In this document: piece after piece, positions 8,347 to 28,776 of the stretch
Layout of the letters: the number at the start of each line of letters is the position of its first letter
Position numbering within the stretch: position 1 is the stretch's first letter
Virus record (IMG/VR): IMGVR_UViG_3300045454_000106
Coordinates: 1 to 37,429 of that record
DNA length: 37,429 nt
Direction: 5' to 3' (one strand)
Origin: a virus
The notes under the pieces: generated by a model
Seen by the model: only the letters and a program-made list of their open reading frames with translations
What the model was told of the DNA's origin: nothing
The model's database searches: none
Position numbers and translations under genes: made by a program

Positions 8347-8360
8347 GCTATGCTGATCCT

Positions 8361-8552
8361 ATGAACGGGCTTAAATCATTCTTCGTCTGGGCCGTATTGC
8401 TGGTGGTGCTCTACGCCACGTGGCAAGTCATTGCCGCAGACGGGTGGCGGGCCGGCGGCATCTTCCTGCTGATACTGCTCGTCTTCGCTGCCATCGTCGG
8501 CGGCATCCATGACATCCTGACCGCGCCCTTCAGGAGCCGCCGGTCTGATTGA
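8361..8552 (+). CDS. Small plus-strand membrane protein, function unknown
   Basis: A 63-residue ORF facing the surrounding tail genes. After a short basic start (MNGLKSF) there are two strongly hydrophobic segments, FVWAVLLVVLYATW and GIFLLILLVFAAIVGGI, and a basic tail (FRSRRSD), as in small inner-membrane proteins. It fills the gap between the tape measure and the tail chaperone genes and overlaps the frameshift extension tail to tail by 23 nt. No good Shine-Dalgarno is seen before ATG 8361. It could be a cargo (moron) gene such as a superinfection-exclusion protein, but nothing in the sequence proves that. Confidence 0.5.
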   Translation: MNGLKSFFVWAVLLVVLYATWQVIAADGWRAGGIFLLILLVFAAIVGGIHDILTAPFRSRRSD

Positions 8553-8918
8553 GCCGCACCGCCTGGCGGTGCCAGAAGAGCAGCTCCTCGACCTCCATCG
8601 CCCAGAGTTCCGACGGCTGAAAGTGGAACGCCTGGGCGAGGTCGCCCATCACGTCTTCCCAGTTCCGGGGAATCCCCCCAAAAAACCGCCGACCGCCTCC
8701 AGCACGCGCGGCACGTCGTCGACGTCCATGTTGTCCAGCGCAGAGGCCGGCAGGTTCGCCAGGCTGGCCGCGAAGTCGAGCATCATGGCGAAGGGAAACT
8801 CCATACTCTTCAGCGGCCGGAAGTCGCGCGCCGTCGGACGGCGCAGTACCAGCTTCTCGATCTTTTCCCCGCCGAACTCGATGGGATGCGCCAGGGTGAT
8901 TTCAGTAACGCCGCTCAT
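8530..8918 (-). CDS. Tail assembly chaperone, -1 frameshift fusion product
   Basis: If ribosomes slip back one base at the slippery site 8673-8685, the 5' frame joins a downstream frame that ends at 8530, giving about 129 residues. The extension reads IPRNWEDVMGDLA, FQPSELWAMEVEELLFWHRQ, which is the usual second part of such chaperones. Long-tailed phages commonly make a short and a frameshifted long chaperone before the tape-measure gene (lambda G/GT, P2 E/E+E'). The extension overlaps the plus-strand ORF 8361-8552 at its 3' end. Confidence 0.75.
8649..8918 (-). CDS. Tail assembly chaperone, short form (Mu gp41-like)
   Basis: An 89-residue protein between tail tube and tape measure. It begins MSGVTEITLAHPIEFGG and contains LVLRRPTARDFRPLK, the signature of the Mu gp41 / phage tail assembly chaperone group. 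The zero-frame product ends soon after the slippery run, at GFPGTGKT. A good RBS (GAGGAG) precedes ATG 8918. It presumably coats the tape measure before tube polymerisation. Confidence 0.85.
   Translation of the reverse strand: MSGVTEITLAHPIEFGGEKIEKLVLRRPTARDFRPLKSMEFPFAMMLDFAASLANLPASALDNMDVDDVPRVLEAVGGFLGGFPGTGKT
8673..8685 (-). other. Programmed -1 frameshift slippery site
   Basis: On the coding (minus) strand six T are followed by six G and an A. In the zero frame this gives two X-XXY-YYZ heptamers, T-TTT-TTG (8685-8679) and G-GGG-GGA (8679-8673). A -1 slip at either opens the frame that encodes the conserved WEDVMGDLAQAF extension. Both the position and the family are where frameshifting is expected. 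Confidence 0.75.
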
Positions 8919-8921
8919 CGC

Positions 8922-9275
8922 TTAGTTCTCCTCGCAGGAGATCGCACCGAAGCGCACCTTGACCTCACCCTTGGAAAGCTCCAGGGCGCCCTTGCACCAG
9001 GCGTTGCGCAGCGAGTAGGTCTTGCCGGTGTCGGTCTCGAAGATCACGGTCTCGTCGGTGATCTCCATGAAGGTCTTGAGGCTGAAAGCCGCGTTGTGCG
9101 CGATGGTGCACTCCACTTCCGGCGCGGTGACCTTCTCCGAGTAGCCAAGCACGCCGGCATCGCCGAGCACGTCCTCGCGTTCGACGCCGCCGAATTTCAG
9201 CGTCGCCCCTTCCTTGCTGCGCAGCCGCTCGCCCTTGACGGTGATGTAGGCGCGGCCGGTGATCTGGTTGCTCAT
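8922..9275 (-). CDS. M: Tail tube protein (Mu M, gp40)
   Basis: A 117-residue protein of the Mu tail-tube family: GRAYITVKGERLRSKEGATLKFGGVEREDV, then VTAPEVECTIAHN and TGKTYSLRNAWCKG. Tube hexamers stack inside the sheath. The gene follows the sheath gene and precedes the chaperones, as in Mu. Its ATG (9275) overlaps the stop of a 28-codon mini-ORF (TCATGA). Confidence 0.9.
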   Translation of the reverse strand: MSNQITGRAYITVKGERLRSKEGATLKFGGVEREDVLGDAGVLGYSEKVTAPEVECTIAHNAAFSLKTFMEITDETVIFETDTGKTYSLRNAWCKGALELSKGEVKVRFGAISCEEN

Positions 9276-9358
9276 GACAATGCCTCCTGAAGGGCCGTCC
9301 CGAAGGAGGCATTAGCCCCCTCGGGGGGCAGCGAACGATAGTGAGCGTGGGGGTTCAT
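9272..9358 (-). CDS. 28-codon mini-ORF inside an intergenic repeat
   Basis: ATG at 9358 has a good RBS (GGAGACAAC spacing) and opens a 28-residue frame starting MNPHAHYRSLPPEGANASF that stops on the ATG of the tube gene (ATGA). Either it is a true leader peptide that couples tube translation to the sheath mRNA, or it is simply an open frame through a mobile intergenic repeat. The DNA has a hairpin (GCCCCC and GGGGGC arms near 9315-9328), and the core GCTCACTATCGTTCGCTGC is one I recognise as common between genes in Burkholderiales. Confidence 0.4.
   Translation of the reverse strand: MNPHAHYRSLPPEGANASFGTALQEALS
9295..9357 (-). repeat. REP-like intergenic repeat of betaproteobacterial type
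   Basis: Read on the minus strand, the element runs from CCCCCACGCTCACTATCG through CGCTGCCCCCCGAGGGGGC to CCTTCGGGACGG. It contains two short hairpins (GCCCCC/GGGGGC and CCTTCGGG). I recall near-identical sequences scattered between genes in Burkholderiales chromosomes; I could not search to confirm. It lies in the 92-nt gap between sheath and tube genes. Confidence 0.5.
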
Positions 9359-9367
9359 GTTGTCTCC

Positions 9368-10846
9368 TTACAGGATGTACTGGACGGCCGCAGCGAACAC
9401 GTCGAACTGATTGACGACGTTCGGCGGGATGACGGCATTGACGCGGTTTTCGTCCGCTTCCGAGCGCAGCACGATCAGATCGGCCTTGAATTGCTCCAGG
9501 TCTTCGAGCAGCCCGACGTAGGCCAGTTGCGCGGCCGCCGCGATCAGCGTGGCGCGGATCAGCTTCGGCGTGGCGATCTTCTGCCCCGGCGCGATGTATT
9601 GCAGCACGTCGTCGCCGGCGAGCTTGTGGGCCGGGTAGTCGCGCACCACGGCGAAGCGGAAGACGTAACGCATGTAGTCCACCGTCCACTTGGTGTTGAG
9701 CTTGAGCAGGCTGCGATCCTCCATGCCGAAGGTGTTGGTCTGGTAGGTCGTGATGACCTGCTCGACCATCGCCGCGCCGGAGGGATCGAAGATGATGGTG
9801 CTGATGCCGTCATAGAGCAGCAGGTTGCGCTCGGCGTCGGTGAAGCGGTCGGCCTCGGCCGGCGCCATCACGTCGGGCAGCGCAAGGCCACGGAACGGGA
9901 TCGCCGGATCGTTGGCGCCGGAACGCTCCACGGCGGCGGCGAACTGCGCGGCCACCACCCAGGGCAACGTCGGGCAGCCCTTGAGGCCGGGGAAGGTGGT
10001 GTGCGGGCTGTTGCGCGCTGCACCGTAGGCCGCCAGCGTGGCGAAGGTGCCCGACTTGAAGCCGAAGCTGTGGCCGGTGCGCATGTCCAGGCCGCCCCAG
10101 CGGCTTTGCAGCTCGCTTTCCATCGCCGTAACGTTGGCCACGTCCGTCCAGGGCATCACCACCGTGTAGAAGGCGCCGGTGCTCATGGCCGCGATCGCGG
10201 TCAGCACGTCCGGGTTGCCGGTGCCGCCGGACATGGCCACGATGGTGGCGGTCATGCCCTTGGGCGTGAATTCGCCGGTGTAGTAGTTGAGGCGGACGTC
10301 GATGCCGTTGCCTTCCTCGCCCTTGTGACGGGAGGTGAGCGTTACCACGCCCAGGTTTGCGGTGGCGGTAACGGACAGATCGGTCAGCGCGGTGATGGCG
10401 GCGGCCACGGCGGCGGCGATCGCGGTGGCGGTCTGCGAGGCAGTGATACCCACCCGCACCGGCTTGCCGCCGATGTAGAGGTTGAGCGTCCCGGCCTCGG
10501 TCGACGAACCGGCGAAGGTGATGGTGCCGGTGGCGGCAGCCCCCGCGCCCAGATCGTCCAGGGCGAGCGCCCACAGATCGGCGGTCGGGTGCACCTTGAG
10601 CGCCGCCGGGATCATCTGCGCCAGCATCGAGCCGCGCCCGAAGTAGTTGACGCCGTCGGCCTCGCGGGTGACGCGGGTCAGCACGCCGGCATTGACGCTG
10701 CCGGTGGAGAGACGCTGGCCGAGCAGCAGCACGCGGCGGGGCATGTTGGGCAGACCGCGCACGGCGCGGGTGTGGTCGATCTCCAGCCAGGCGCCGGGAA
10801 TGCGCCAGTCGGTGGGGATCGACATGAAAGTGATGTTGTCGGGCAT
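9368..10846 (-). CDS. L: Contractile tail sheath protein (Mu L, gp39)
   Basis: A 492-residue sheath subunit. It opens ITFMSIPTDWRIPGAWLEIDHTRA, and the central and C-terminal parts carry the usual sheath signatures (NPHAV-like insert around TITFAGSSTEAGTLNLYIGG, AMSTGAFYTVVMPWTD, ERNLLLYDGISTIIFDPSG, TYQTNTFGMEDRSLLKLNTKWTVDYMR split across 395-425). The length matches Mu L (about 495). RBS GGAGG precedes ATG 10846. An inverted pair of the dispersed motif lies at 10340-10373. Confidence 0.93.
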   Translation of the reverse strand: MPDNITFMSIPTDWRIPGAWLEIDHTRAVRGLPNMPRRVLLLGQRLSTGSVNAGVLTRVTREADGVNYFGRGSMLAQMIPAALKVHPTADLWALALDDLGAGAAATGTITFAGSSTEAGTLNLYIGGKPVRVGITASQTATAIAAAVAAAITALTDLSVTATANLGVVTLTSRHKGEEGNGIDVRLNYYTGEFTPKGMTATIVAMSGGTGNPDVLTAIAAMSTGAFYTVVMPWTDVANVTAMESELQSRWGGLDMRTGHSFGFKSGTFATLAAYGAARNSPHTTFPGLKGCPTLPWVVAAQFAAAVERSGANDPAIPFRGLALPDVMAPAEADRFTDAERNLLLYDGISTIIFDPSGAAMVEQVITTYQTNTFGMEDRSLLKLNTKWTVDYMRYVFRFAVVRDYPAHKLAGDDVLQYIAPGQKIATPKLIRATLIAAAAQLAYVGLLEDLEQFKADLIVLRSEADENRVNAVIPPNVVNQFDVFAAAVQYIL

Positions 10847-10875
10847 GGTGCCTCCTGTCTAGGTTTGGCTTCGCG

Positions 10876-11082
10876 TTACTTCTTGGGCTTGATCTGGGTG
10901 ACGTTCGCGGCGTCGTCTCCGGCGGCCGAGGGCGTCACGTCGTCGAGGCGCACATCGCCGTCGAACTCGCGGCGCAGCCAGAAAGAGTCGCGCTCGACCG
11001 TCTCGCCCTCGGCCTTGAGGATCTGCCCGTCGAGCTTGCGCACTCGGGCGCCGTTGATGGGGGTGGCGATAACCTGCGGCAT
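10876..11082 (-). CDS. Mu gp38-like protein (DUF2635)
   Basis: A 68-residue protein starting MPQVIATPINGARVRKLDG with EGETVERDSFWLRRE, as in DUF2635 proteins, which sit directly before the sheath gene in Mu-like phages. The function is unknown and it is probably a tail component or assembly factor. The TAA stop is part of a GTAACGCG motif (10872-10879). RBS GGAG before ATG 11082. Confidence 0.75.
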   Translation of the reverse strand: MPQVIATPINGARVRKLDGQILKAEGETVERDSFWLRREFDGDVRLDDVTPSAAGDDAANVTQIKPKK

Positions 11083-11099
11083 AGTCGTCTCCGTGTTGT

Positions 11100-11696
11100 C
11101 TAGGGTTGAAGGGTGGTGGTCTCGGACACTTCCGGTGCCGAGGTGGTGTGGTCGGGCGGATCGCCCGCCCACTTGGCGTGCTCGGTGGCGCTGACGTGCG
11201 GCTCGATGTCGTAGCTGGCGCGGAAGGTCTTGAACAGCGCCAGGGTGGATTCGTCGATGGCCGGCGGCAGCTCGACGGCGCGCGCCTCGATGGCCACGGT
11301 GGCGACGTAGAGGCCGGCCGCGTAGAACGCCTCGTCGGCCTGAAAACTGACGCCGGTGACGTAGAACACCACGCCATCGGCCTTGCCGCCGTCCATGATG
11401 GACAGCACGGCATCGATGATCTGCGTGAGGCCGACCGCCTTGCCGTCGCCCTTGCGGGCGGCTTCCTGGCTGCGGCTGTTGCGCGCCACGCAGGCGATAC
11501 CGAAGCGCACATCGGCCTCGCCGTCGGCGACCGTGAAATCCATCGGGGCCACATAGACCGCCGGCGCCTCGGCGCCGAACCGCTTGACCAGGGAGACCGA
11601 GTCCAGATCGGGCAGGCCGGCCACGGTGGCCAACTTCTGCCCCAGGGCGGATGCCTTGATCAGGGTGACCAGGCCGTCTTCGAGTTCAGCCAGCAA
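11100..11696 (-). CDS. Mu gp37-like tail protein (DUF1834)
   Basis: A 198-residue protein if it starts at TTG 11696, placed 5 nt after a GGGGGAGG Shine-Dalgarno and overlapping the preceding gene by 11 nt. The upstream ATG at 11750 is deep in that gene and has no RBS. The N-terminus MLAELEDGLVTLIK and the middle VAPMDFTVADGEADVRFGIACVARN fit DUF1834 (Mu gp37), a tail-completion or neck protein by position. The C-terminal about 35 residues are acidic and Thr/Ser-rich. Confidence 0.75.
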   Translation of the reverse strand: MLAELEDGLVTLIKASALGQKLATVAGLPDLDSVSLVKRFGAEAPAVYVAPMDFTVADGEADVRFGIACVARNSRSQEAARKGDGKAVGLTQIIDAVLSIMDGGKADGVVFYVTGVSFQADEAFYAAGLYVATVAIEARAVELPPAIDESTLALFKTFRASYDIEPHVSATEHAKWAGDPPDHTTSAPEVSETTTLQP

Positions 11697-12168
11697 TTGC
11701 GCCTCCCCCGTAGTGCTTGCGCAGCAGATGAAGAATGTCCTCGCGGTCATCCCTCGAGATGCCGAGGAACGGCCGCGCCGGAATCGTGACCTGCTTGGCC
11801 GTTACAAAGCCGCCGCCGGCGACCCTGAAGCGCAGCGCCTTTTTCGTCCGGGGCTTGATGACGCCGCCGAACTGGTGGATGGCTGCATAGACGCGGTTAA
11901 CGCCCCAGGTGGCCTCGCCCTGCGTGGCCCGACTGGAGATCGAGCCGGAGAGGTGGCCATCCTTGGTGAGCGTGCGTCCGCTCTTCTTGCGCCCCTTCTT
12001 CCAGGCGACCCCGTCCGGGCCGATCTGGGTGCGGAAGCGCATGCGGGTGCTGCTCTCGCCCAGGGCGGCAATCTCCTGCATGGCCGTCTGCGGTTGCATC
12101 GCCGCCGTCATCATCCGGCGCAGCGTGCTCATCAGGCGGGCGTCGTCGACCTTGACCTCGATCTGCAT
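11686..12168 (-). CDS. G: Virion morphogenesis protein (Mu G / P2 S family)
   Basis: A 160-residue protein of the phage virion morphogenesis family: MTAAMQPQTAMQEIAALGES, RFRTQIGPDGVAWKKG, DGHLSGSISSRATQGEATWG, YAAIHQFGGVIKPR and IPARPFLGIS. These act in tail completion or head-tail joining. In Mu the G gene follows F; here it sits after the gp36 gene, next to the tail genes. Start ATG 12168 coincides with the end of the gp36-like gene. Confidence 0.85.
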   Translation of the reverse strand: MQIEVKVDDARLMSTLRRMMTAAMQPQTAMQEIAALGESSTRMRFRTQIGPDGVAWKKGRKKSGRTLTKDGHLSGSISSRATQGEATWGVNRVYAAIHQFGGVIKPRTKKALRFRVAGGGFVTAKQVTIPARPFLGISRDDREDILHLLRKHYGGGAIAG

Positions 12169-12677
12169 CAGCGCAGCCCCCCGTTATCCGGGCGGCCGAA
12201 CACCTTGGTCGGGCTGGTGATCTCGACCATGCCGCCCTGGGCGATCGGAGCGGTATCGCCGGTGGCCGTGGTGCCCAGGCTGACCTTGCCGGCGGAAATG
12301 TCGCGCAGCACGGCCACGGCCGCATCGCGGCGCTTCTGGATGACCTCGGTCACCTGGTCGTCGTAGAGGTGGTGGCGTGCCAGGTCGCAGGCCAGGCGCT
12401 TGACGATCGAGGGCGCCGGGTTGAGCGGCACGCTGTATCGCGTGGCCACGTAGCCGTCGATCTCGCTGTCCGCGTCGGCGAGCGCCCCATTGATGAGCGC
12501 CAGTGCCGCCGCAGCGGCCGCCTGCTCGGGGGCCGTGAAACCGGACATGTCGCCGCCGGCCGCCGCCGTCGAGAGCATCGCGGCCGTTACCAGGCGCGGG
12601 ATGCTCCGATCGGCGCGCTGGGCAAGCTCCTCGGCAGAGAAGCGTTCCAGCAGGTTGGCGGCGGTGGCGTAGGTCAT
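12168..12677 (-). CDS. Mu gp36-like head-completion protein (DUF1320)
   Basis: A 169-residue DUF1320 protein: MTYATAANLLERFSAEELAQ, ADADSEIDGYVATRYSVPL, VKRLACDLARHHLYDDQVTE and VIQKRRDAAVAVLRDISAGK. Members resemble gp6-type head-tail connectors. It begins 7 nt after the stop of the gp35-like gene; that TAA stop is part of a GTAACGCG motif (12680-12687). Confidence 0.85.
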   Translation of the reverse strand: MTYATAANLLERFSAEELAQRADRSIPRLVTAAMLSTAAAGGDMSGFTAPEQAAAAAALALINGALADADSEIDGYVATRYSVPLNPAPSIVKRLACDLARHHLYDDQVTEVIQKRRDAAVAVLRDISAGKVSLGTTATGDTAPIAQGGMVEITSPTKVFGRPDNGGLR

Positions 12678-12683
12678 CGCGCG

Positions 12684-12923
12684 TTACTCGGCGGCGACCA
12701 CAATCACGACCAGCATCGGCTCGGCGAGGATCTGCTCGATCTGCTCGGCGGTGAATTCGTCGGCGTTGACCGTGACTTCCTCGGCCGGCCAGGCGCGGCC
12801 GGCACGGCGGAAGCCGGAGACCAGCGAACGCACGATCAGCTTGTCGACCTTGACCTCGGCGGCGGCCTTCGCCTGTTCCTTCTCCGGCGCGGCGGCGGCC
12901 TTCGCCTTCTTGTCTTCTGCCAT
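12684..12923 (-). CDS. Mu gp35-like protein (FluMu N-terminal domain type)
   Basis: A 79-residue protein. The first 25 residues are Lys/Ala/Glu-rich; the rest (VDKLIVRSLVSGFRRAGRAW, then FTAEQIEQILAEPMLVVIVV) matches the small HI1506/FluMu domain proteins found next to the major head gene. RBS AGGAG before ATG 12923 favours this start over the longer frame. Its role is unknown and it is assumed to be head-associated. Confidence 0.7.
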   Translation of the reverse strand: MAEDKKAKAAAAPEKEQAKAAAEVKVDKLIVRSLVSGFRRAGRAWPAEEVTVNADEFTAEQIEQILAEPMLVVIVVAAE

Positions 12924-15506: not shown

Positions 15507-16277
15507 TCAAAAACCGGCGGCGCGGGTCTTGTCCGCCAGCATCTTCTCCAGGTTGGCGCGACGCCCGCCTGGTGCGTAGTTGAACTCGGGATCGACACCG
15601 GCCGGCACGCGCTGCATCTCGCCGGTGCGCTTGTTGGTGTAGTCGTAATAACGCTCGGCCGGCGCCTGGCCGACCTTGAGGCCCTGCCGCTCGATCTGCC
15701 GGCTGCCCACCTGGATCACCCGGCACTTGCAGCCCCACGCCTTGACCGGCATGTGCGACTGCCACCACGGATCATCGGCCGGCAGCACCAGGCCGTCCCA
15801 GGCAGCGTGTTCCTTGCGCTCATGGGCGCTCGGGGTGTGGTCGTACATCAGGTAGGGCAGGGTCGCCTTCGATTCCTGGATGCGTTCCCACTGGCCCTCG
15901 CTGTGCGCCGTGCGCAGGTTGGTGTCGTAGATCACCTTGAGCCGGCGCGTGCTGCCGAGCTGCACTTCCTTGAGCTGGCCGTCGGCCGGGTCGGTCATCA
16001 TGGCGCGCCCCCACCAGCCACGCTTGACCAGGTTGGGCTTGAGCGCCGCCTTGAACGCCTCGAAGGTGGTGCCGTCGGCCAGGGCCGCATCGACCTGGTC
16101 GCGGATCTCCACCAGGAGATCGAGCTGCATGGCCTTGGCCACGGTGAACGCGGCCTGGTGTTCCTGCTGCCAGACGTCGCGATGGTCGAAGCCGATCTTG
16201 AAGCCCTTCTGGCGGAAGAAGTCCACCGCCTCGGCCGGCGGCAGGTTGAGCAGCAGGGACAGCGGCGATTTAGGCAT
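15507..16277 (-). CDS. F: Minor head protein F (SPP1 gp7 / Mu F family)
   Basis: A 256-residue protein. Its C-terminal half carries the F-family pattern: TNLRTAHSEGQWERI, LPYLMYDHTPSAHERKEHAAW, then DDPWWQSHMPVKAWGCKCRV. The N-terminus (PPAEAVDFFRQKGF) is family-like. F is packaged in a few copies near the portal and is needed early in head assembly. The ATG at 16277 has an AGGGGG RBS; a further upstream ATG (16304) lacks one. It is cut off from the portal gene by about 4.8 kb of other genes and a plus-strand island whose promoter overlaps its start. Confidence 0.85.
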   Translation of the reverse strand: MPKSPLSLLLNLPPAEAVDFFRQKGFKIGFDHRDVWQQEHQAAFTVAKAMQLDLLVEIRDQVDAALADGTTFEAFKAALKPNLVKRGWWGRAMMTDPADGQLKEVQLGSTRRLKVIYDTNLRTAHSEGQWERIQESKATLPYLMYDHTPSAHERKEHAAWDGLVLPADDPWWQSHMPVKAWGCKCRVIQVGSRQIERQGLKVGQAPAERYYDYTNKRTGEMQRVPAGVDPEFNYAPGGRRANLEKMLADKTRAAGF

Positions 16278-16305
16278 TGACACCCCCTTGTAACGCGAGC
16301 ACAAT
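16277..16305 (+). promoter_or_regulatory. Sigma70-type promoter of the plus-strand C4-like locus
   Basis: A perfect -35 TTGACA (16277-16282), a 17-nt spacer and CACAAT (16300-16305, 4 of 6 to consensus). The spacer contains TGTAACGCG (16289-16297), a copy of the dispersed motif, where a bound repressor would block RNA polymerase. Transcription would enter the C4-like leader at about 16312. The promoter overlaps the start of the divergent F gene. Confidence 0.6.
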
Positions 16306-16518: not shown

Positions 16519-16728
16519 ATGGCTGAAGCAATCAACACCCCCGTCGACCTCGACGAACTTTCCCAACTCGCCTCGCGCTGCCAGAGCCTCGCTCTCGGCT
16601 TGCAGATCGTCATGACCGGCTCCGGCCTGCCCGAAGGCCCGGAGCGCGAAGACCTCTGCTACGAGATGGCCCGCATCATCGAAGAAGCCGCCAAGCGGGC
16701 GCATTGCCTCGCAGCGGCCTTGATGTGA
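16519..16728 (+). CDS. 69-residue protein, paralogue of the gene after rha
   Basis: A small helical acidic protein, MAEAINTPVDLDELSQLAS, SLALGLQIVMTGSGLPEG, REDLCYEMARIIEEAAKRAH. By eye about 80% of residues match the product of 27720-27929 on the other strand. RBS AGGAGG lies 5 nt before ATG and is the predicted target of the C4-like antisense element. The function is unknown. In copy B the same gene follows rha, so here the C4 leader acts on it directly with no antirepressor between. It is the first gene of a three-gene plus-strand operon. Confidence 0.8.
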   Translation: MAEAINTPVDLDELSQLASRCQSLALGLQIVMTGSGLPEGPEREDLCYEMARIIEEAAKRAHCLAAALM

Positions 16729-16742
16729 AAGGGGGCGACGCA

Positions 16743-16904
16743 ATGAAAGCCCACACCGTCCTGCTGATGCTGCGCGAGCTGCTCGCGCTGCTGCACGCCG
16801 CGATCCTCGCCCACCCGGATCAGCGCGCCGTGGCCGCCACGCTGCGCGCGCTGGCCGCCGAAGCGCAGCGCACCGCCCACCGGCTCGAGCGGAGCCTGCC
16901 ATGA
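16743..16904 (+). CDS. 53-residue helical protein, unknown
   Basis: Starts at ATG 16743 with RBS AAGGGGG, 14 nt after the 69-residue gene. The sequence is Leu/Ala/Arg-rich (LLMLRELLALLHAAILAH, VAATLRALAAEAQRTAH) and likely two amphipathic helices. No motif is recognised. Composition and spacing support a real second gene of this operon; it has no counterpart beside the rha-linked copy. Confidence 0.6.
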   Translation: MKAHTVLLMLRELLALLHAAILAHPDQRAVAATLRALAAEAQRTAHRLERSLP

Positions 16905-16952: not shown

Positions 16953-16983
16953 ATTCATGCCCCTCGTCAAAAAGGAGCATGCC

Positions 16984-17562
16984 ATGAGCGACAAATCCAC
17001 ACTTCCGCCCGCCCTCCAGAAGGCCCGCGCAAAGCTCGACCAAATGAAGGCCGAAGGCGTTAAGGTCGAAATTCTCAACGCCATCGATAAGGCCAAGCGC
17101 AACCCGGCCTCCAAGGCACTGGCCATGAAGGGGCGCTGCTGGCAATGCGAAGGCATCGAAGACCCTGGCACCGTCGAACGCATCGCCGCCTGCTCGGTCA
17201 AGCGCTGCGCCCTGAATCCGCTGCGCCCGCATCAGCGCGGCGGCACCAAGGCCACGATAGAGAAGCTGTTGGCCACAGCGCCGACCTACCCGGCCGGCGC
17301 CATTCTCGGCCCGCTCGAACGCGCCCGCAGCAACCCGGCCAGCCGTAGCACAGCCATCCGGGCCTACTGCTGGGACTGCATGGGCGGCAAAGAGAACGGC
17401 CGCTCGGGTGCCAACGGCAACGTCAGGAAGCTGGTGCGCGAATGCTCGGTCGAGGACTGCACGATCTGGCCGGTTCGCCCCTGGCAAAAGCCCGCCGAAA
17501 CGGCCGAAACCGACCCGGAAGACGAAACCGGGGAGAGCGACACCGATGAGGATCAAGAATAA
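16984..17562 (+). CDS. Double zinc-finger cargo protein, unknown
   Basis: A 192-residue protein with a strong RBS (AAAAAGGAG). Two similar cysteine modules are visible: CWQC, then AACSVKRCALNPLRPHQ (about 53-88), and CWDC, then RECSVEDCTIWPVRPWQ (about 130-170). Each gives four Cys (CxxC and CxxxxC), so two zinc knuckles arose by internal duplication. The region before each module (KAKRNPASKALAMKGR; ERARSNPASRSTAIRA) is also duplicated. The C-terminus is very acidic (DPEDETGESDTDEDQE). Basic zinc modules plus an acidic tail suggest a nucleic-acid or protein-binding regulator. It is followed by a clear terminator. Confidence 0.75.
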   Translation: MSDKSTLPPALQKARAKLDQMKAEGVKVEILNAIDKAKRNPASKALAMKGRCWQCEGIEDPGTVERIAACSVKRCALNPLRPHQRGGTKATIEKLLATAPTYPAGAILGPLERARSNPASRSTAIRAYCWDCMGGKENGRSGANGNVRKLVRECSVEDCTIWPVRPWQKPAETAETDPEDETGESDTDEDQE

Positions 17563-17672
17563 CGCGCCGTTAACGCGGAAAATCGGCAAGCCGTTGGCGA
17601 AACTCTCGCCGGAGGTAGGCAGATAGCCCCGCGATACCTGTAACGCGCCAGAGGCCCTAAAAACCACAACCA

Positions 17673-17698
17673 GCCCCGCCCCGAGCGGGGCTTTTTTT
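17673..17698 (+). terminator. Rho-independent terminator of the plus-strand island
   Basis: GCCCCGC (17673-17679), a 5-nt loop, GCGGGGC (17685-17691) and then seven T. It ends the 16519-17562 operon on the plus strand. The stretch 17563-17672 before it holds AATAACGCGCCGTTAACGCG (17558-17577) and TGTAACGCG (17639-17647), variants of the dispersed motif, and no gene. Confidence 0.9.
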
Positions 17699-17705
17699 CG
17701 CCCGC

Positions 17706-17906
17706 TCATTTGCGCCCCATCCATATCAATTCGTCGTCGCGCTTGTAACGCGCCCGGATGCTGCTGCCGCCGCTGTGTATCCGCTGCCCCCCCAGGCCGA
17801 AAGTCGTCGCCGGCGGGACGGCGGGCGGGACGATGCTGGCGTGCCGGCCCAGCGTCGCGAAATGTCGCGCACCGAAGTGCCGCGCCCGGACATGCTCAAG
17901 CGCCAT
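17706..17906 (-). CDS. 66-residue basic protein at the end of the virion cluster
   Basis: Start ATG 17906 overlaps the stop of the upstream gene by about 10 nt; this is the best start in the frame. The sequence is Arg/His-rich with a Pro-rich middle (SIVPPAVPPATTFGLGGQ) and ends ELIWMGRK. No family is recognised. Its stop lies 8 nt from the terminator of the convergent plus-strand island. Confidence 0.6.
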   Translation of the reverse strand: MALEHVRARHFGARHFATLGRHASIVPPAVPPATTFGLGGQRIHSGGSSIRARYKRDDELIWMGRK

Positions 17907-18738
17907 CGACGACCACCGCCGTGCGATTGCCCTCGGCATCGACGGTGCTGACCACGCGGTCGGTTATGCCGTCCAGGCCCTTGAAGGTTTCCGTGCCAGT
18001 GCCCGCGCCGCTAACCTTGCCGGCGAGCACGGAGGCCATGATGCGCAGCACTTCGCGCAGGGTCTTGCCATCCTCGACCACGCCAAGCAGCGGGTCGCCG
18101 GCCGCGCCGGATGCGGCCAGCAGGGCTTGCGCCTCGGTGCCGCCGATCAGGTGTTCCCACACGGCATTTGCCAAGCCCTGCGGACTCAAATCAGTGAAGG
18201 GCGTCCATTCGCCGGACAGCGACAGCCGCCCGCGCAGGTCGGACGTGCCAGCGAACTGCGCCACGCTGCCGATGCCCTCGAAGGGCACGATCATCGCCAG
18301 ATTGCAGCCGTCGCCGGTCAGGCTGATGCTGCCCGATCCGCCGAGGCCGATGGTCAGCTTGAGCACGAGGTTGTCGCCGGTCAGGCTGACGACCTGCGCC
18401 GTGCCTTCCATGCCGACGACGAGCGAGACATTGCCCGCGCCGGTCAGGCTGGCGACAGCGCCCGTGCCGTCCATCGGCCCGCCTTGCAAGAGATTGCTCG
18501 GCCCTTCGGCCAAGGTGGCGATGGTGCGCAGCGCCGACATGCTGCCGGCGCGGATCGCGGGCACCGTGCCCTTCATGTCGTAACCGTCCGGCGTGCTCGC
18601 CGTGCGCGCAAAGCTGGCATTCACAAACCGATTGAGCCGATCCCCTTGCCCACGCAGGCGCGCATCAAGGCCGGGGGCCGCTCCCGACCCCTTGTAGGTG
18701 CTGCGCGTCATGTGGCGCGCATTCGGCCAGAGTGCCAT
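17896..18738 (-). CDS. Putative virion protein with four beta repeats
   Basis: A 280-residue protein. From about residue 90 to 175 there are four tandem repeats of 21-22 residues built on GxGxVxSLTGxxNLxL (for example GTGAVASLTGAGNVSL, GTAQVVSLTGDNLVLKL, GSGSISLTGDGCNLAM), which suggests a stacked beta structure. The N-terminus is basic with no signal peptide; the C-terminus (LREVLRIMASVLAGKVSG, GNRTAVVVDGA) resembles the end of phage virion proteins. The exact family is not recognised. It lies in a run of structural-type genes between portal and F. Confidence 0.6.
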   Translation of the reverse strand: MALWPNARHMTRSTYKGSGAAPGLDARLRGQGDRLNRFVNASFARTASTPDGYDMKGTVPAIRAGSMSALRTIATLAEGPSNLLQGGPMDGTGAVASLTGAGNVSLVVGMEGTAQVVSLTGDNLVLKLTIGLGGSGSISLTGDGCNLAMIVPFEGIGSVAQFAGTSDLRGRLSLSGEWTPFTDLSPQGLANAVWEHLIGGTEAQALLAASGAAGDPLLGVVEDGKTLREVLRIMASVLAGKVSGAGTGTETFKGLDGITDRVVSTVDAEGNRTAVVVDGA

Positions 18739-18740
18739 GA

Positions 18741-19619
18741 TTAGCCCCAGACGACCTCGATGCCGCCCGCGAATGTGGTGCTGGCTGCGGTGGCTGCGCC
18801 CGCACCCCATAGCCAGGTGAGGCAGGCACCGTCCTTGATTTCCGGCAGGCTGGGAATCTGGTTGAGCAGGTCTTTTTCGGTCATCAGGCCAGCAACCGAC
18901 AAGGTGATCGAGGCCAGCGGACGCGCCAGCACCAGCGCGAAGGTGCCCGTATTGGCCGCGCTCATGGTCACGGTTTGCACCGAGCGAATGCCGCTATCGC
19001 CATTGGCCAACGGCAGGAAGGGGCCGTAGTTGTTGGCTGCCGTGCCCGAGTGGTTGATGTGCCCAGCGATGGCCGATGCCGTGCAGGCCACGGTTACGGG
19101 CAGGGTGTTGCCGGTGCTGCCCGCCTGATCGGTGTAGCTCATGGCGAAGTTCTGCGCCGTCGCACCCGCCGCAGCGGTTTGCACCATGAAGGCGCGCACG
19201 CCTTCGCCGTTGGTGTAGCGCAGCGATGGCGTGCCGACCAGCGTCTGCGCGCTGGTCGTGTTGTTGCTGATGCCTGGATAGTAGCCCTGCATATCGACCA
19301 GCATCAGCGTGCCCGGTACGGCAGTCGCGGCCGTGCCCCAGGCGTTCATGTTGAGCAGGTGCTTTTTCAGCGGGCTGACGTTGCCGCCGTGCGGCATGCC
19401 GAAAATCTGCGTGCCGTTGCCGGTCGCCTCGTCGCAGCCGCGCCAGTTTAAGGCGGTGCCCGCCCAGGCATTCGCTACCGGCATGCTCGACAACATACTC
19501 ATGTCGTACCAGCGGCCCAGCGCGTAGGCCGCTGCGCCGGTGATCTTGTTCCAGTCGTAGCGGGTGGTTTGGCCGGCCGCGATGGCGGCCACGAGGTTGT
19601 CGATAGATTGAATGGTCAT
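18741..19619 (-). CDS. Putative virion structural protein, paralogue 1
   Basis: A 292-residue protein opening IQSIDNLVAAIAAGQTTRYD and ending GGIEVVWG. It shares layout with the next gene upstream: similar N-terminus, length, a LMLVDMQGYYPGI block like LVLFDLLGYYPLI, a Thr/Ala-rich middle and a VWG end. Both look like diverged copies of one gene. The composition (Asn, Thr, Gly, Ala) suits a beta-rich virion protein. Homologues probably exist in other transposable phages, but I cannot name a family. Confidence 0.65.
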   Translation of the reverse strand: MTIQSIDNLVAAIAAGQTTRYDWNKITGAAAYALGRWYDMSMLSSMPVANAWAGTALNWRGCDEATGNGTQIFGMPHGGNVSPLKKHLLNMNAWGTAATAVPGTLMLVDMQGYYPGISNNTTSAQTLVGTPSLRYTNGEGVRAFMVQTAAAGATAQNFAMSYTDQAGSTGNTLPVTVACTASAIAGHINHSGTAANNYGPFLPLANGDSGIRSVQTVTMSAANTGTFALVLARPLASITLSVAGLMTEKDLLNQIPSLPEIKDGACLTWLWGAGAATAASTTFAGGIEVVWG

Positions 19620-19622
19620 GGT

Positions 19623-20489
19623 TTATCCCCAAACGAAAGTGAAATTGCCGAACCAGGCGACGGTGCGCGCCGTGGTGCCGGTCGCCAGCATGTCGAACCA
19701 GCCCAGCCACGCGCCGTCGTGAATGCGCGGCGGGGCAAAGCCTTTCTCGGCGATAAAGTTCTTTTCGGCGCAGACGAGGTTGTCGCCCAGCACCATGCTG
19801 CCGAGAATCTTGACGAGGTAAATGCAGTGCAGCCCGCCCGGAGCGGTCGTGTGCTGGATCGTGTTGATGCGTTTGACGCCCTTGGCACCGTCGCCCAGGG
19901 GGACATGCACCGTCGAACTCGCCGCTCCGGCAGTAGTCCTACTGCCGGAGCAGACGAGGTTCTGCCCGTTATTTGGAATATCCACCGTGATGCTGCGGTC
20001 GATGTTGTCCGAATCGGTGTAGCCGATGACGGTCAATCCGTTCTGAATCGCCGGGGCAATGTGATTGACCAGCACCATCTGCACGCCCGTCGCATCGGCA
20101 TAGCGCGGCAGGGTCAGGTCGTTGATGCACTCCTGCAAGTCATTCGAGTCGCCATCGATCAGCGGGTAATAGCCGAGCAGATCGAACAGCACCAGACTGA
20201 TCGGGCCGTTGTAGGTGGCCTGGTTGCTCCACATTTGCGCTTCGGCGAGATAGCGTTCCTCCCCCGCACCGATGCCAGGAAACCAGATGGCGTCGTTCTT
20301 CTGCGCAATCGAGGGCGTGAAGGTCAGCGGCGAACCGACCCGTGCATCATAGGCCGGCTGGCCCGAGGCATATGACGGATCGGCCCACACCTTTGCATGG
20401 GCCGTGCCGGCGTTCTTCTGGAAGCGCTGGACGTGGAACTTGCCGGCCGCGAAGGCGGCATTGAAGTCAGAGAGTGACCGAATCGCCAT
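19623..20489 (-). CDS. Putative virion structural protein, paralogue 2
   Basis: A 288-residue protein starting IRSLSDFNAAFAAGKFHVQR and ending FGNFTFVWG. See the paralogue immediately downstream for shared features (LVLFDLLGYYPLIDGDSND here). It overlaps the small zinc-ribbon gene by 23 nt. No signal sequence or catalytic motif is seen. A head decoration, head fibre or tail spike part is possible; position alone cannot decide. Confidence 0.65.
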   Translation of the reverse strand: MAIRSLSDFNAAFAAGKFHVQRFQKNAGTAHAKVWADPSYASGQPAYDARVGSPLTFTPSIAQKNDAIWFPGIGAGEERYLAEAQMWSNQATYNGPISLVLFDLLGYYPLIDGDSNDLQECINDLTLPRYADATGVQMVLVNHIAPAIQNGLTVIGYTDSDNIDRSITVDIPNNGQNLVCSGSRTTAGAASSTVHVPLGDGAKGVKRINTIQHTTAPGGLHCIYLVKILGSMVLGDNLVCAEKNFIAEKGFAPPRIHDGAWLGWFDMLATGTTARTVAWFGNFTFVWG

Positions 20490-20604
20490 CGTCGTATTGC
20501 TCCACGATTCCGTCCGGGTGATTGGGGCATGCCGGTGGTTCCTCGGGCGCCGGGTCGATGGGGCCGAGGATTTCCCCGCAGTGCGCGCAGCGATAGACGA
20601 GCAT
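20467..20604 (-). CDS. 45-residue zinc-ribbon protein
   Basis: Start ATG 20604 overlaps the previous stop as ATGA. The protein reads MLVYRCAHCGEILG and then EEPPACPNHPDGIVEQYDD: a CxxC pair and a later C/H pair, as in small rubredoxin-like zinc ribbons. It is coupled to the genes on both sides. The function is unknown. Confidence 0.65.
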   Translation of the reverse strand: MLVYRCAHCGEILGPIDPAPEEPPACPNHPDGIVEQYDDGDSVTL

Positions 20605-21044
20605 CAGTCGACCGTGCCTTGCAGTGCGCCCGCGTTGAACAGCGGCGTGATACCGGCACTGATCGAACGGGACGCGGACAGCGCGCCCGAGTAGAGAATG
20701 TCGCCAGCGCCCGCCGACAACAGGCCCACCGAGAAGTGAGTCGCGGTCGCTGTGCCGGCCGTGCATTCGCCGAACTGCACTGTCGCGGCGTTGCTGACCT
20801 GTGCACCGGCCACGGTGAAGCCTGCCCCGGAACGCGCCACGGCCACGCGGCCATAGCCGGTATAGGCTACCTCATTGGTCGTCTGGTCGCCGGCATCGCC
20901 GGGGTCTGCCGAATGCAGGGCGACGTAGAAGCTGCCCGCCGTGGCGCTGTTCTGCAAGCCGGCCGCATCGCCGACATTCGGCCAGTCGACGTTGTTGAAC
21001 AGCAGATTCAGCAGGTTGGTTTCGGATGCGTTGGACATGCTCAT
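20604..21044 (-). CDS. Putative virion protein downstream of the portal
   Basis: A 146-residue protein: SNASETNLLNLLFNNVDWPN, SFYVALHSADPGDAGDQTTN, EVAYTGYGRVAVARS, and an Ala/Gly-rich end. This pattern is frequent in phage proteins encoded near portal or head genes and annotated as structural. It begins 4 nt after the portal stop. The family name is uncertain. Confidence 0.6.
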   Translation of the reverse strand: MSMSNASETNLLNLLFNNVDWPNVGDAAGLQNSATAGSFYVALHSADPGDAGDQTTNEVAYTGYGRVAVARSGAGFTVAGAQVSNAATVQFGECTAGTATATHFSVGLLSAGAGDILYSGALSASRSISAGITPLFNAGALQGTVD

Positions 21045-21047
21045 GAT

Positions 21048-23003
21048 TTACTCCTGTTCGTAAGTGGTGACGGTACGGGTGACCTCCAGCGTCTGCGGAT
21101 CGCGCTCGACGGTCTGCACGGCGCGGGCGGGATGGGTGGGCACCACCACGGTAGTCACCGGCGAGGGCTGGATTTCGTTGGTAACGCTCACCGGGGCCGG
21201 CTGCACTTCGTTGGTGACGGTCACCACCGGGGCGGCGACGGTAACGATGGGGGCGGCCGGATCGGGCACATGGATATGCGCCTCGACGGTCACCTGCGCC
21301 GGTGGCGCCGGATCTGCCGGCTTGGTCGCGGTGAGCGCCGCCAGTAGGGTGGCGTGGCGATCGGCGTCAGCGGTGGCGATCCGCGTCAGTGCGTCGGCCA
21401 GGCCGGCCAAGGCCTCGGTGGCCGCATCGGTGCGTTCGGCGCGGCCGAGCAGGCGGGCGGCGAAGGTGCCGCTGGCAAGCAGGCCGACCAGCGCGTCGGC
21501 ATCCATCCGTTCGAGCACCTCGGGCAGCCGGGCGCGGAATTCCTCCAGGGTCTTGCACTCTTCCATCAGCCGCTCGATGGGCGACACCAGCGGCTCTGTA
21601 ACGCGCTGCCAGTCGCTGGCCATGTCGGCGGACAGCAGATCGAACTCGTCGGCCTGGAAGGTGCCGGCCTTCATCGCGGCCAAGGCGGCCTTGGTCTTGT
21701 CGGGCGCTACATCCGGCGTAGCAACAGCTACATTTGGCGTAGCGCCACCGAGGGTTTCCTCGCCCTCGGCCGGTTCGGGGATGCGCAGCTTCTCATGCAC
21801 CCACTTGACCGGGATACTGCGCATGCCGGCGCCGGTGAGCTTGCCGATCCCCTCGGCCAGCGTATTGATGTCCTCGGCCTCGCCGGTGTCGAACACCAGG
21901 CGCGGGCAGCGCGCCAGGCTGTCGATGCCGCCCCGGTTGAGGGCCAGCAGCGGGTAGATCAGGTCGCGCGTTACCGTGCCGGCGATCTGCCGGGCGTCGG
22001 CGTTACGGATGTCGTGGCGCACCTCGTTGTGCACGTTGGCCACGCCGGAGCCGAGGCCGGTGGTGCGGGCTTCGCTCGATGTCGTCTGGCCGAGGACGGC
22101 CTTGGACTGCGCGCGGTCGGCCCAGTCGATCATCGCCAGGTGCGGGGTGCCGCTGCCGTCGGCCGATACCTTGTTGATCTCGATGGCCATGTCGGCCGGC
22201 ATGATGGCGCGGGCATCGTGGCCCAGCGCCGTGACGGCGCGCATCAGGCTCGCCTTCTCATCCTTGCTGGCGCCCTGGTAGTACTTGCCGAGCACGATGG
22301 GCAGGCCGTAGGTTTCCAGGAACTCGGCGAAGTCGCCCAGGCTGTACGCCTTGTAGAGGAAGGGCCAGACCAGGGCGCGGTAGAGGCCCATGCGGCCCAG
22401 ATAGCCGGTCTTGGCCTTGCCGTGGGTGTGCAGCACCCAGCCAAAGGGCTGCATGGGCGCGCCGTCGGCACTGTTGTCGAGCAGGCGCAGCTCGCGGCGC
22501 AGCCGATCGAGGCGGAACCATTCCTGCGGCCGGGGGTGGAAGGCCGGAAGCCACTCGGTGCCTTCGCGCCGCCACTCCAGTTCCGTCGCCGCGAATCCGT
22601 GGCCGACACCCTCCATGAGGGCGAGCAGCAGATCCTCGACAGGATCGACGGCGTCGGTCAGCACTTCCTTGACCCACTCGGCGTTCGCCTTCTCGGCGGC
22701 CGTGGCGTTGCGGGGCGGCACGATGTCCCAGTCGAGATCCATCACCGCCAGCTTGCGCTTGCCGATCTCGCACAGCAGGTGCGCGTCGCGCTCCTCCATG
22801 TCCGAGAAAAGCCGGTGCTGTGCCGTCAGGTCGCCGTCGTCGGCCTGCTTGAGGGTGGCCGACAGCTTGCTCGGCGTGAGGCCGGCGAGCATGGGCGTGA
22901 GGTACTGATTCTCCAGCGTGGTGATGCGGCTGGTCTGCGGTTCCTTGAGGGCGCCGGTGTCGATGGGGGTTCCGTACTGGTCGAGAATCTTGGGCATGGT
23001 CAC
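21048..23003 (-). CDS. Portal protein (Mu gp29, DUF935) with C-terminal repeats
   Basis: A 651-residue protein. The DUF935 portal core is clear: PKILDQYGTPIDTGALKEPQ, LFSDMEERDAHLLCEIGKRK, VMDLDWDIVPP, GWVLHTHGKAKTGYLGRMGL, KAYSLGDFAEFLETYGLP and GQTTSSEARTTGLGSGVANVHN. Mu gp29 has about 512 residues. The extra C-terminus (from about 560) is Pro/Val/Thr-rich with short repeats VTVEAHIHVP, VVTVTNEVQPAPVSVTNE, IQPSPVTTVVV. Start GTG 23003 overlaps the terminase stop (GTGA); ATG 22997 is an alternative. Confidence 0.9.
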   Translation of the reverse strand: MTMPKILDQYGTPIDTGALKEPQTSRITTLENQYLTPMLAGLTPSKLSATLKQADDGDLTAQHRLFSDMEERDAHLLCEIGKRKLAVMDLDWDIVPPRNATAAEKANAEWVKEVLTDAVDPVEDLLLALMEGVGHGFAATELEWRREGTEWLPAFHPRPQEWFRLDRLRRELRLLDNSADGAPMQPFGWVLHTHGKAKTGYLGRMGLYRALVWPFLYKAYSLGDFAEFLETYGLPIVLGKYYQGASKDEKASLMRAVTALGHDARAIMPADMAIEINKVSADGSGTPHLAMIDWADRAQSKAVLGQTTSSEARTTGLGSGVANVHNEVRHDIRNADARQIAGTVTRDLIYPLLALNRGGIDSLARCPRLVFDTGEAEDINTLAEGIGKLTGAGMRSIPVKWVHEKLRIPEPAEGEETLGGATPNVAVATPDVAPDKTKAALAAMKAGTFQADEFDLLSADMASDWQRVTEPLVSPIERLMEECKTLEEFRARLPEVLERMDADALVGLLASGTFAARLLGRAERTDAATEALAGLADALTRIATADADRHATLLAALTATKPADPAPPAQVTVEAHIHVPDPAAPIVTVAAPVVTVTNEVQPAPVSVTNEIQPSPVTTVVVPTHPARAVQTVERDPQTLEVTRTVTTYEQE

Positions 23004-28627: not shown

Positions 28628-28776
28628 GTTTTCGATTCCTTTTGAGGGAACCCACGAAGGCCGTGGGCGGCCGGGTGCTCAAAACCGTCGAAAGGCGGCG
28701 GGCTTATTTCCCCGAAGGGTCTTGTATTCGCCACACACCCGGCCATAGAAAACCTATGGACGTAAAAAAACCGCAT
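28624..28776 (-). CDS. Ash/Icd-like leader ORF coupled to rha
   Basis: A 50-residue frame MRFFYVHRFSMAGCVANTRP, then FGEISPPPFDGFEHPAAHGL. It ends with ATGA on the rha start. The open frame extends further upstream, so the start is uncertain. ORFs with MAGCVANTRPF are, as I recall, annotated as Ash family or Icd-like in many prophages and overlap the C4 RNA core. In P1, icd lies between c4 and ant and ant translation depends on it. The coupling here fits that scheme, but the peptide may just reflect RNA conservation. Confidence 0.5.
   Translation of the reverse strand: MRFFYVHRFSMAGCVANTRPFGEISPPPFDGFEHPAAHGLRGFPQKESKT

Follow-up and report, generated by a model that had tools for sequence, protein, structure and literature searches.

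What is the role of the genes that separate the portal gene from the F gene in an otherwise recognisable Mu-like phage? The window (the whole 37,429-nucleotide stretch analysed here, IMG/VR record IMGVR_UViG_3300045454_000106) has a Mu-like transposase (phrog_310), portal (phrog_113), F protein (phrog_220), protease (phrog_328) and tail sheath (phrog_165), together with an ordinary Mu-like tail and its own tail-fibre genes. A survey of gene order found that F adjoins the portal gene or overlaps it in Mu, as the preliminary description had stated, and in five other named Mu-like phages (six of the six examined); these phages share the Mu-type portal and F families with the window phage, but have no such cassette. 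In the window, by contrast, six minus-strand ORFs (g1 to g6, 17706-21044) lie between the two genes, as tightly spaced as first described (+3, -1, -23, +3, +2 and about -11 bases). They do not, however, run straight into F as had been implied, since a gap of ~1.4 kb holding a 201-aa plus-strand ORF intervenes (Table 1). As judged from sequence comparisons, we consider it probable (roughly 0.6) that these genes encode a fibre of the portal vertex (neck) whose base is homologous to GP4 fibre I, and that the cassette has moved as a unit between differently built phages.

Table 1. Features of the portal-F region in the window.
Feature	Position	Strand	Description
g1	20604..21044	minus	146 aa; Gp80-family protein, proposed fibre base; Pfam, PHROG and PDB matches
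g2	20467..20604	minus	45 aa; small CxxC/CxxH zinc-ribbon-like protein, optional among relatives; from sequence
g3	19623..20489	minus	288 aa; first paralogue; jelly-roll-like fold inferred from g4 kinship
g4	18741..19619	minus	292 aa; second paralogue; predicted all-beta jelly-roll-like domain (AlphaFold2)
g5	17896..18738	minus	280 aa; 21-residue repeat body to residue 183, exchangeable C-terminal module
g6	17706..17906	minus	66 aa; start codon within g5; weakly supported gene
Exchangeable cassette extent	17845..21055	minus	Nucleotide similarity (blastn)
Mu-type portal (gp29-like)	21048..23003	minus	Upstream of cassette; Pfam Portal_Mu E 3.5e-92, phrog_113 E 8e-159
F-like minor head protein	15507..16304	minus	The Mu head gene that follows on the minus strand; Phage_Mu_F E 3.3e-16, phrog_220 E 9.4e-86
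Terminator-like hairpin	17672..17692	scored on both strands	Just beyond g6; consensus match only

The identity of g1 is central to this reading. Its product matches Pfam PF23140 (Gp80) over positions 2-127 of the 128 in the profile (E 8.4e-21, 75.1 bits, cutoff 27), phrog_240, annotated as a head protein (E 1.5e-15), and the solved GP4 protein PDB 8jou_a (phmmer E 7.8e-5). These profile matches put g1 in the Gp80 family, which was founded on fibre I of the Ralstonia podophage GP4, the place of Gp80 in GP4 being taken from the Pfam name and the PDB entry; unlike GP4, the window phage is Mu-like and has a contractile tail. Relatives of the GP4 fibre I module are found in Burkholderia phage CSP3, Ochrobactrum phage POI1126 and other phages. 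The GP4 fibre I module, a Gp80 protein followed by a shaft-like repeat protein, is recognisable in the window, since g5 has a period of 21 residues and the g5-like protein that comes after the Gp80 homologue in CSP3 has one of 20. In CSP3, however, neither a jelly-roll pair nor a zinc ribbon lies between the two, and a Gp77 gene comes next, whereas none of the six window proteins matches the Gp77 fibre-tail adaptor family in Pfam. Most cultured phages with a g1 match are without g3/g4, and only three of the 20 such records are also among the g3/g4 matches, which counts against the neck-fibre reading.

The remaining proteins largely bear out what had been read from the sequence at first sight. 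The two large ORFs, g3 and g4, are indeed paralogues (25% identity over 273 positions, E 3e-18), and the earlier statement that no functional family could be recognised holds for this pair, which has no match in Pfam, PHROG or NCBIfam, though not for g1. Structure prediction, run for g4 of the pair, confidently predicts an all-beta, jelly-roll-like domain (AlphaFold2 pLDDT 89.4, pTM 0.90), and kinship with g4 suggests the same fold for g3. A convincing match to a solved fold was not obtained for g4: nothing reached Z 8 or more among 984 chains compared with VIA-align, and a Foldseek match to birnavirus VP2 (E 1e-4) was rejected on TM-scores of no more than 0.21 and an rmsd near 19. Seven good matches in BFVD (TM to query 0.78-0.92) are all to unannotated proteins of uncultured phages. 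Relatives of g4 in IMG/VR number at least 238, of which the best 80 were retained; a plasmid search gave no match. The 45-residue g2 does have the CxxC and CxxH pairs of a zinc ribbon, with zinc-ribbon profiles matching only under their cut-offs, and it is present in 42 of 81 related contigs.

The repeats of g5 have a period of 21 residues: at that offset the mean BLOSUM62 score is 0.48, whereas 200 shuffles give a 95th percentile of 0.02. A period of 20-22 residues recurs in the protein at this position in seven of the eight phages tested, phage Lacusarx (L094) being the exception. The body of the g5 from locus L010 is 79% identical to that of the window, and its tail is of a different kind; in L007 the corresponding protein closes with an Alginate_lyase domain (Pfam, 67.9 bits). 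A regular-expression classing of the g5 tails put many in 'other', so that only body and tail lengths were used from it and tail types were assigned by eye. Pfam scans of 38 g5 relatives gave four weak single matches, and of ten genes that occupy the g5 position or lie downstream of the cassette, one had a helicase match in Pfam and nine had no match. Because the g5 model was poor (pLDDT 52.9), its fold search was rejected.

We put forward a model in which the assembly, position and host binding of the cassette products are inferred. Gp80 (g1) would dock the fibre onto the ring at the head-tail junction, g3 and g4 would form a bead or collar layer on it, and g5 would assemble into an oligomeric shaft of repeats that touches the host surface or its polysaccharide with its exchangeable end, with g2 perhaps acting as a small assembly factor or clamp. 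Since the phage has a Mu-like tail with its own fibres, the cassette would be a second host-contact device. Of the outer structures first proposed, a head fibre or a neck appendage, the latter is the better supported, by the Gp80 membership of g1, by portal neighbours of several families and by a Gp77 protein at the same junction in the Mu-like sibling L116 (46.5 bits, cutoff 27; the family is named for the GP4 fibre-tail adaptor); the gene set is, moreover, not specific to this phage.

The main competing explanation is that these are capsid decoration proteins, cement or head fibres on icosahedral faces or vertices, with the jelly-roll-like pair as the decoration and g5 as a head fibre. We regard this as unlikely, though it has evidence behind it: PHROG files g1 as a head protein, the genes sit among head genes, and the sibling genes at the junction match phrog_3758, a 'virion structural protein' of the head and packaging category. 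A chain of the 'capsid asymmetric unit' of cyanophage Pam1 (7eel_H), which we take to be a decoration protein, also stands among the better VIA-align results for g4 (Z 5.2, 113 residues, rmsd 3.6, 8% identity). Scores of about 5, however, belong to the background, and one just as high (Z 5.1) is reached by a tail fibre chain of 7-7-1, so that the weak resemblance to Pam1 does not establish kinship. The only solved relative of g1 is named GP4 fibre I by Pfam, and this, together with the Gp77 family in L116, leans towards a fibre at the neck rather than a decorated capsid.

A neck fibre encoded by a small operon has a precedent in the Anabaena myophage A-1(L), where, as described in passages of PMC10966104, a bead-chain fibre of gp82-gp81-gp80 is mounted on a 15-fold neck ring. 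Like the fibre proposed here, it is set at the head-tail junction of a phage with a contractile tail and consists of an anchor, a repeated bead and a terminal protein; in A-1(L), according to the same passages, its genes are set apart from the rest of the structural genes. The A-1(L) proteins have no detectable sequence kinship with g1, g3/g4 or g5 (unfiltered hmmsearch and phmmer runs against four sequences; lowest full-sequence E 0.023). The carbohydrate-binding module of the A-1(L) neck fibre is described there as not binding the host, and a neck fibre therefore need not be an adhesin.

The same genes recur well beyond this phage. The order g1-(g2)-P-P-g5, where P is a g3/g4 paralogue, is kept in all 81 related IMG/VR contigs as far as each reaches (60 with g1, both paralogues and g5; 21 partial), and this recurrence of g1, g3/g4 and g5 indicates that the genes are not chance ORFs. 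A circular podovirus record (L005) has this order too, as does a phage record of 642 kb (L003) in the form g1-P-P-g5. Upstream of g1, the nearest ORF of at least 350 aa ends no more than 30 bases away at 20 of the 47 loci. Among 37 upstream neighbours scanned, the matches to portal families (overlapping counts) were to phrog_156 (10), phrog_332 (6, head-tail adaptor), phrog_21 (5), phrog_12082 (4), phrog_537 (4) and others; the non-portal neighbours, which count against the neck-fibre reading, include head closure Hc3 (3), major head proteins (phrog_1357, 2; phrog_267, 2; phrog_10, 1) and a terminase (1). Gene order across these contigs thus shows g1-(g2)-g3/g4-g5 travelling as a unit, usually adjoining a portal gene whatever its family. 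A nearly identical gene set beside the portals of otherwise unrelated phages suggests a plug-in host-contact part that is passed around.

We can take this further, with the odds against us, to a portal-independent neck fibre with a self-contained docking base, paired jelly-roll-like proteins and a shaft with an exchangeable tip, fitting virions as unrelated as those of a Mu-like myophage, a podophage and a very large phage: an accessory host-contact organ that would evolve and spread apart from capsid and tail. The phage parts usually traded are tail and receptor-binding genes. If the proposal is right, a whole neck-level fibre set is exchanged between phages with portals of different families, which raises the question of how a single docking protein could suit neck rings that differ, and the widespread g3/g4 family gains a likely role. 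Among PMC papers with open-licence full text, the searches listed none whose title and abstract describe this cassette or its exchange.

Two further explanations are improbable, to about the same degree. The genes could be assembly or connector parts needed for the head-tail junction of this phage, in keeping with their tight spacing and location between the portal and the remaining head genes; yet the named Mu-like phages and the siblings L111, L112, L113, L117 and L120 have nothing comparable at that junction, and this cassette is found with portals of more than one family. Alternatively, the late operon could have taken in accessory cargo genes that act inside the cell, for example in superinfection exclusion or lysogenic conversion. 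The unit is transferable and optional, at a site that varies between siblings, but g1 belongs to a virion protein family and the g5-position proteins are repeat proteins, one of them fused to a polysaccharide lyase.

Comparison with individual relatives fits best with a neck fibre cassette that may have entered the portal-F junction through horizontal exchange. By blastn the window is matched by L009 over 17845-21054 (74%) and by L010 over 18156-21055 (80%). The latter has the closest cassette (g1 92%, g3 86% and g4 89% identical) in a contig with a non-Mu portal, a portal-like gene lying downstream of the cassette, and has no same-frame match to any window gene outside it. The closest Mu-like relative, L108, is 89% identical in the portal, 92% in F and 86% in the protease, and carries between portal and F a different, distantly related insert, with a jelly-roll relative of only 32% identity. 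Related or analogous inserts are found at exactly the portal-F junction in L108, L109 and L115/L116; their small genes (L108, L109 and L116) show no significant kinship to the Gp80 profile (best E 0.0058, five sequences). The junction is a variable site among the relatives of the window phage, and would be marked in Mu-like phages as a place where accessory fibre genes appear. Very improbable is a chimeric assembly, with a podophage cassette pasted into a Mu-like genome: the similarity to L009 and L010 does end within ~10 bases of the g1 start, but this boundary is gene-precise and the siblings have their inserts at the same point. A damaged F gene was also considered and rejected; F has 265 aa in the window and ~428 aa in L108, yet 259-264 aa in Mu-like phages of Shewanella and Vibrio.

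The least certain of the six genes is g6, for which the single supporting search result is a phmmer match (E 3e-5) in one contig, entered as loci L009 and L090. In L008 a small gene that resembles g6 by eye comes after the g5-like gene.

The preliminary description had placed a six-gene cluster between portal and F, the F-like minor head protein gene of the Mu head set, and this observation was borne out: in minus-strand order the portal is followed by g1 to g5, a probable g6 and then F. As judged by ORF positions on that strand, portal through g6 are packed almost gap-free, and PHROG matches identify the remainder of this 37,429-base IMG/VR virus contig as Mu-like with a contractile tail.

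Features of the window around the cassette and elsewhere in the genome
Feature	Position	Strand	Remarks
Terminase		minus	upstream of portal; first in order
Mu-type portal	21048-23003	minus	after terminase, before g1
g1		minus	146 aa; after portal
g2		minus	45 aa; after g1
g3		minus	288 aa; after g2
g4		minus	292 aa; after g3
g5		minus	280 aa; after g4
g6		minus	66 aa; after g5; gene probable
Terminator-like hairpin	17672-17692		after g6
F	15507-16304		about 1.4 kb past cassette end
Transposase			phrog_310
Sheath			phrog_165
Tube			phrog_185
Tape measure			phrog_28
Baseplate genes			
Tail-fibre genes	left end		

The earlier statement that the cluster belongs to no recognised functional family proved wrong for g1, which scores 75.1 bits against Pfam Gp80 (cutoff 27), a family named 'Podophage GP4 fiber I protein gp80', and also matches phrog_240 'head protein'. 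The sole solved relative of g1 is 8jou chain a (E 7.8e-5), which is also matched by the g1 relative of CSP3 (E 2.1e-48); the CSP3 gene directly before that relative has its match in entry 8jov, to the GP4 protein gp81. The g2 product is zinc-ribbon-like, with profile matches below curated cut-offs, while g5 and g6 had no family match. Neither member of the paralogue pair g3/g4 (25% identity, E 3e-18) had a match in Pfam, PHROGs or NCBIfam, and an alignment of 61 such sequences contains eight invariant columns. The g4 structure is predicted with confidence (mean pLDDT 89.4, pTM 0.90) and is beta nearly throughout. Against solved structures it reaches at best Z 5.3; its likeness to viral jelly rolls is at background level and is equalled by that to a 7-7-1 tail-fibre chain, so that the modelled fold can be called jelly-roll-like and no more than that.

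We then surveyed related cassettes in IMG/VR, where g4 found 238 relatives and g3 five; the best 80 of the 238, together with the g3 matches and after dropping four same-contig repeats, gave 81 distinct contigs. With P standing for a gene of the g3/g4 kind, 35 contigs have the order g1-g2-P-P-g5, 25 have g1-P-P-g5 and 21 are partial, 17 of which reach a contig end; no other order occurred in the 81. A g5 match above threshold was absent from L053, L057, L072 and L073, and in the first three a correctly placed ORF belongs to the g5 BLAST cluster. Because loci were picked by g4 or g3 similarity, the constancy of g1, g5 and their order is informative, and the presence of paralogues is not. Within the phage collection, podovirus MW202692 and LR756502 (642 kb) carry g1-P-P-g5 and Pseudanabaena phage PA-SR01 carries g1-P; paralogue genes also occur in Rctr197k and podovirus MW202738, where nothing matched g1. 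Further relatives lie on five MAG contigs, whose labels are Pseudomonadota, Sphingomonadales, Opitutus, Bdellovibrionales and uncultured bacterium, and which may point to a wide host spread. Immediately upstream of the Gp80 gene of LR756502 stands a collagen-like ORF of 1414 residues that contains long GATGSQG repeats (L003 126-4370), and in L020 the cassette adjoins the gene for a protein of 1632 aa that has both AAA_34 and Strawberry-notch-type helicase domains (7985-12882).

An upstream ORF of 350 aa or longer is present in 47 loci, and the nearest such ORF was scanned in 37 of them, omitting nine near-duplicate or cut copies and a 1415-aa ORF of L020 that had no PHROG hit. Among the matches listed, whose counts overlap and cover 25 of 48 families, portal families were phrog_156 (10), 21 (5), 12082 (4), 537 (4), 1216, 12, 2662, 5929 and 2271 (2 each), 146 and 18470 (1 each), with 'head-tail adaptor' phrog_332 in 6 of the 37 ORFs. 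Non-portal matches among those listed were head closure Hc3 (3), the major head proteins phrog_1357 (2), phrog_267 (2) and phrog_10 (1), and terminase (1). The upstream ORF ends at most 30 bases from g1 in 20 of 47 loci; in L010, the closest cassette, a portal-like gene, similar to phrog_332/1216, lies downstream instead. By gene order, the cassette usually adjoins a portal, irrespective of portal family.

When the whole window was compared with 87 loci by blastn, nothing matched outside the cassette except a 140-base portal end (L035, L088), although loci span at most 6 kb each side and more distant shared genes may escape detection. L010 matches 18156-21055 at 80% and L009 17845-21054 at 74%. 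At the protein level L010 shares 92% (g1), 86% (g3) and 89% (g4) identity, with no same-frame match to any window gene beyond the cassette. L108, the closest Mu-like relative, has 89% identity in portal, 92% in F, 86% in protease and 80% in major head protein, but its portal-F interval contains just one jelly-roll relative, 32% identical. With L010 close in the cassette only and L108 in the flanks only, cassette and flanks therefore differ in nearest kin, and the exchange appears recent.

Among 13 IMG/VR relatives of the window portal, F follows straight after portal in L112, L113, L117 and L120, and after a 160-base gap in L111. A g4-like gene occupies the junction in L108/L114 and L109; in L108 and L109 a phrog_3758 virion protein comes before it, and in L108 a 21-residue repeat protein comes after. 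The L115/L116 junction encodes a small protein plus one with 22-residue repeats, L116 additionally a Gp77 fibre-tail adaptor. In L119 the interval is taken up by 0.85 kb of other small ORFs, and the contigs of L110 and L118 stop too soon to show the junction. None of six named Mu-like phages, Mu included, has an insert. By these comparisons the junction appears to be a variable site in Mu-like phages. The siblings' fibre-like gene sets differ (L116 4420-6663, L108 8932-11096, L109 8582-10608), one of the three including the Gp77 family.

In all 41 g5 sequences compared, the body before an L[ST]P-like motif spans 171-187 residues; tails run from 38 to 143 residues and, judged by eye, are of several dissimilar kinds. 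In window and L010 the bodies are 79% identical, but the tails (97 and 44 residues) belong to different kinds. A 20-22 residue period exceeded the shuffle 95th percentile in seven of eight g5-position proteins, including those of CSP3, LR756502 and the circular podovirus record L005, and failed in phage Lacusarx. The g5-position protein of MW202738 has the period in its N-terminal part and a Pfam Alginate_lyase domain as its C-terminal half; this gene (L007 8550-10001) follows the paralogue pair, placing an enzyme at the g5 position. Monomer prediction of g5 yielded no usable structure. A constant body with a changing or enzymatic end would have the appearance of receptor-binding fibres.

Of the outer structures guessed at previously (head fibre, neck appendage or similar), a neck appendage is the best among the readings available, g1 being of the GP4 fibre I family. 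The best available reading of the cassette from its genes is a GP4-fibre-I-type module plus a jelly-roll-like pair, of which we found no prior description, and the module travels as a unit across phages of dissimilar build. Membership of g1 in the Gp80 family, this joint travel of the genes and the repeat pattern are shown by the sequences. Gp80 (g1) would dock as base at the neck, g3/g4 may form an oligomeric bead or collar layer, g5 would provide shaft and host-binding tip, and g2 may be a small, optional partner. By analogy this is supported by contractile-tailed A-1(L), whose 15-fold neck ring bears five bead-chain neck fibres encoded by a single three-gene operon (PMC10966104), although its neck-fibre proteins showed no sequence kinship to those of the cassette. 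A comparable 15:12 mismatch is ascribed to GP4 in a study of phage DEV (PMC10925440). An adhesin role for the cassette is not assured, because the carbohydrate module of the A-1(L) fibre failed to bind host (PMC10966104).

Between cassette and F, opposite in strand to the late genes, lies a 201-aa ORF (16957-17562, plus) that contains twice the Cys-rich motif NPAS...CW.C...CSV..C...P.RP.Q and had nothing above cut-off in Pfam, PHROG or NCBIfam. Two smaller plus-strand ORFs (16519-16728 and 16704-16904) adjoin it, and a promoter-like site is present at 16277; the region is possibly an accessory insert. Elsewhere in the window, Rfam sRNA-Xcc1 matches 28661-28744 on the minus strand (73 bits; gathering score 53).
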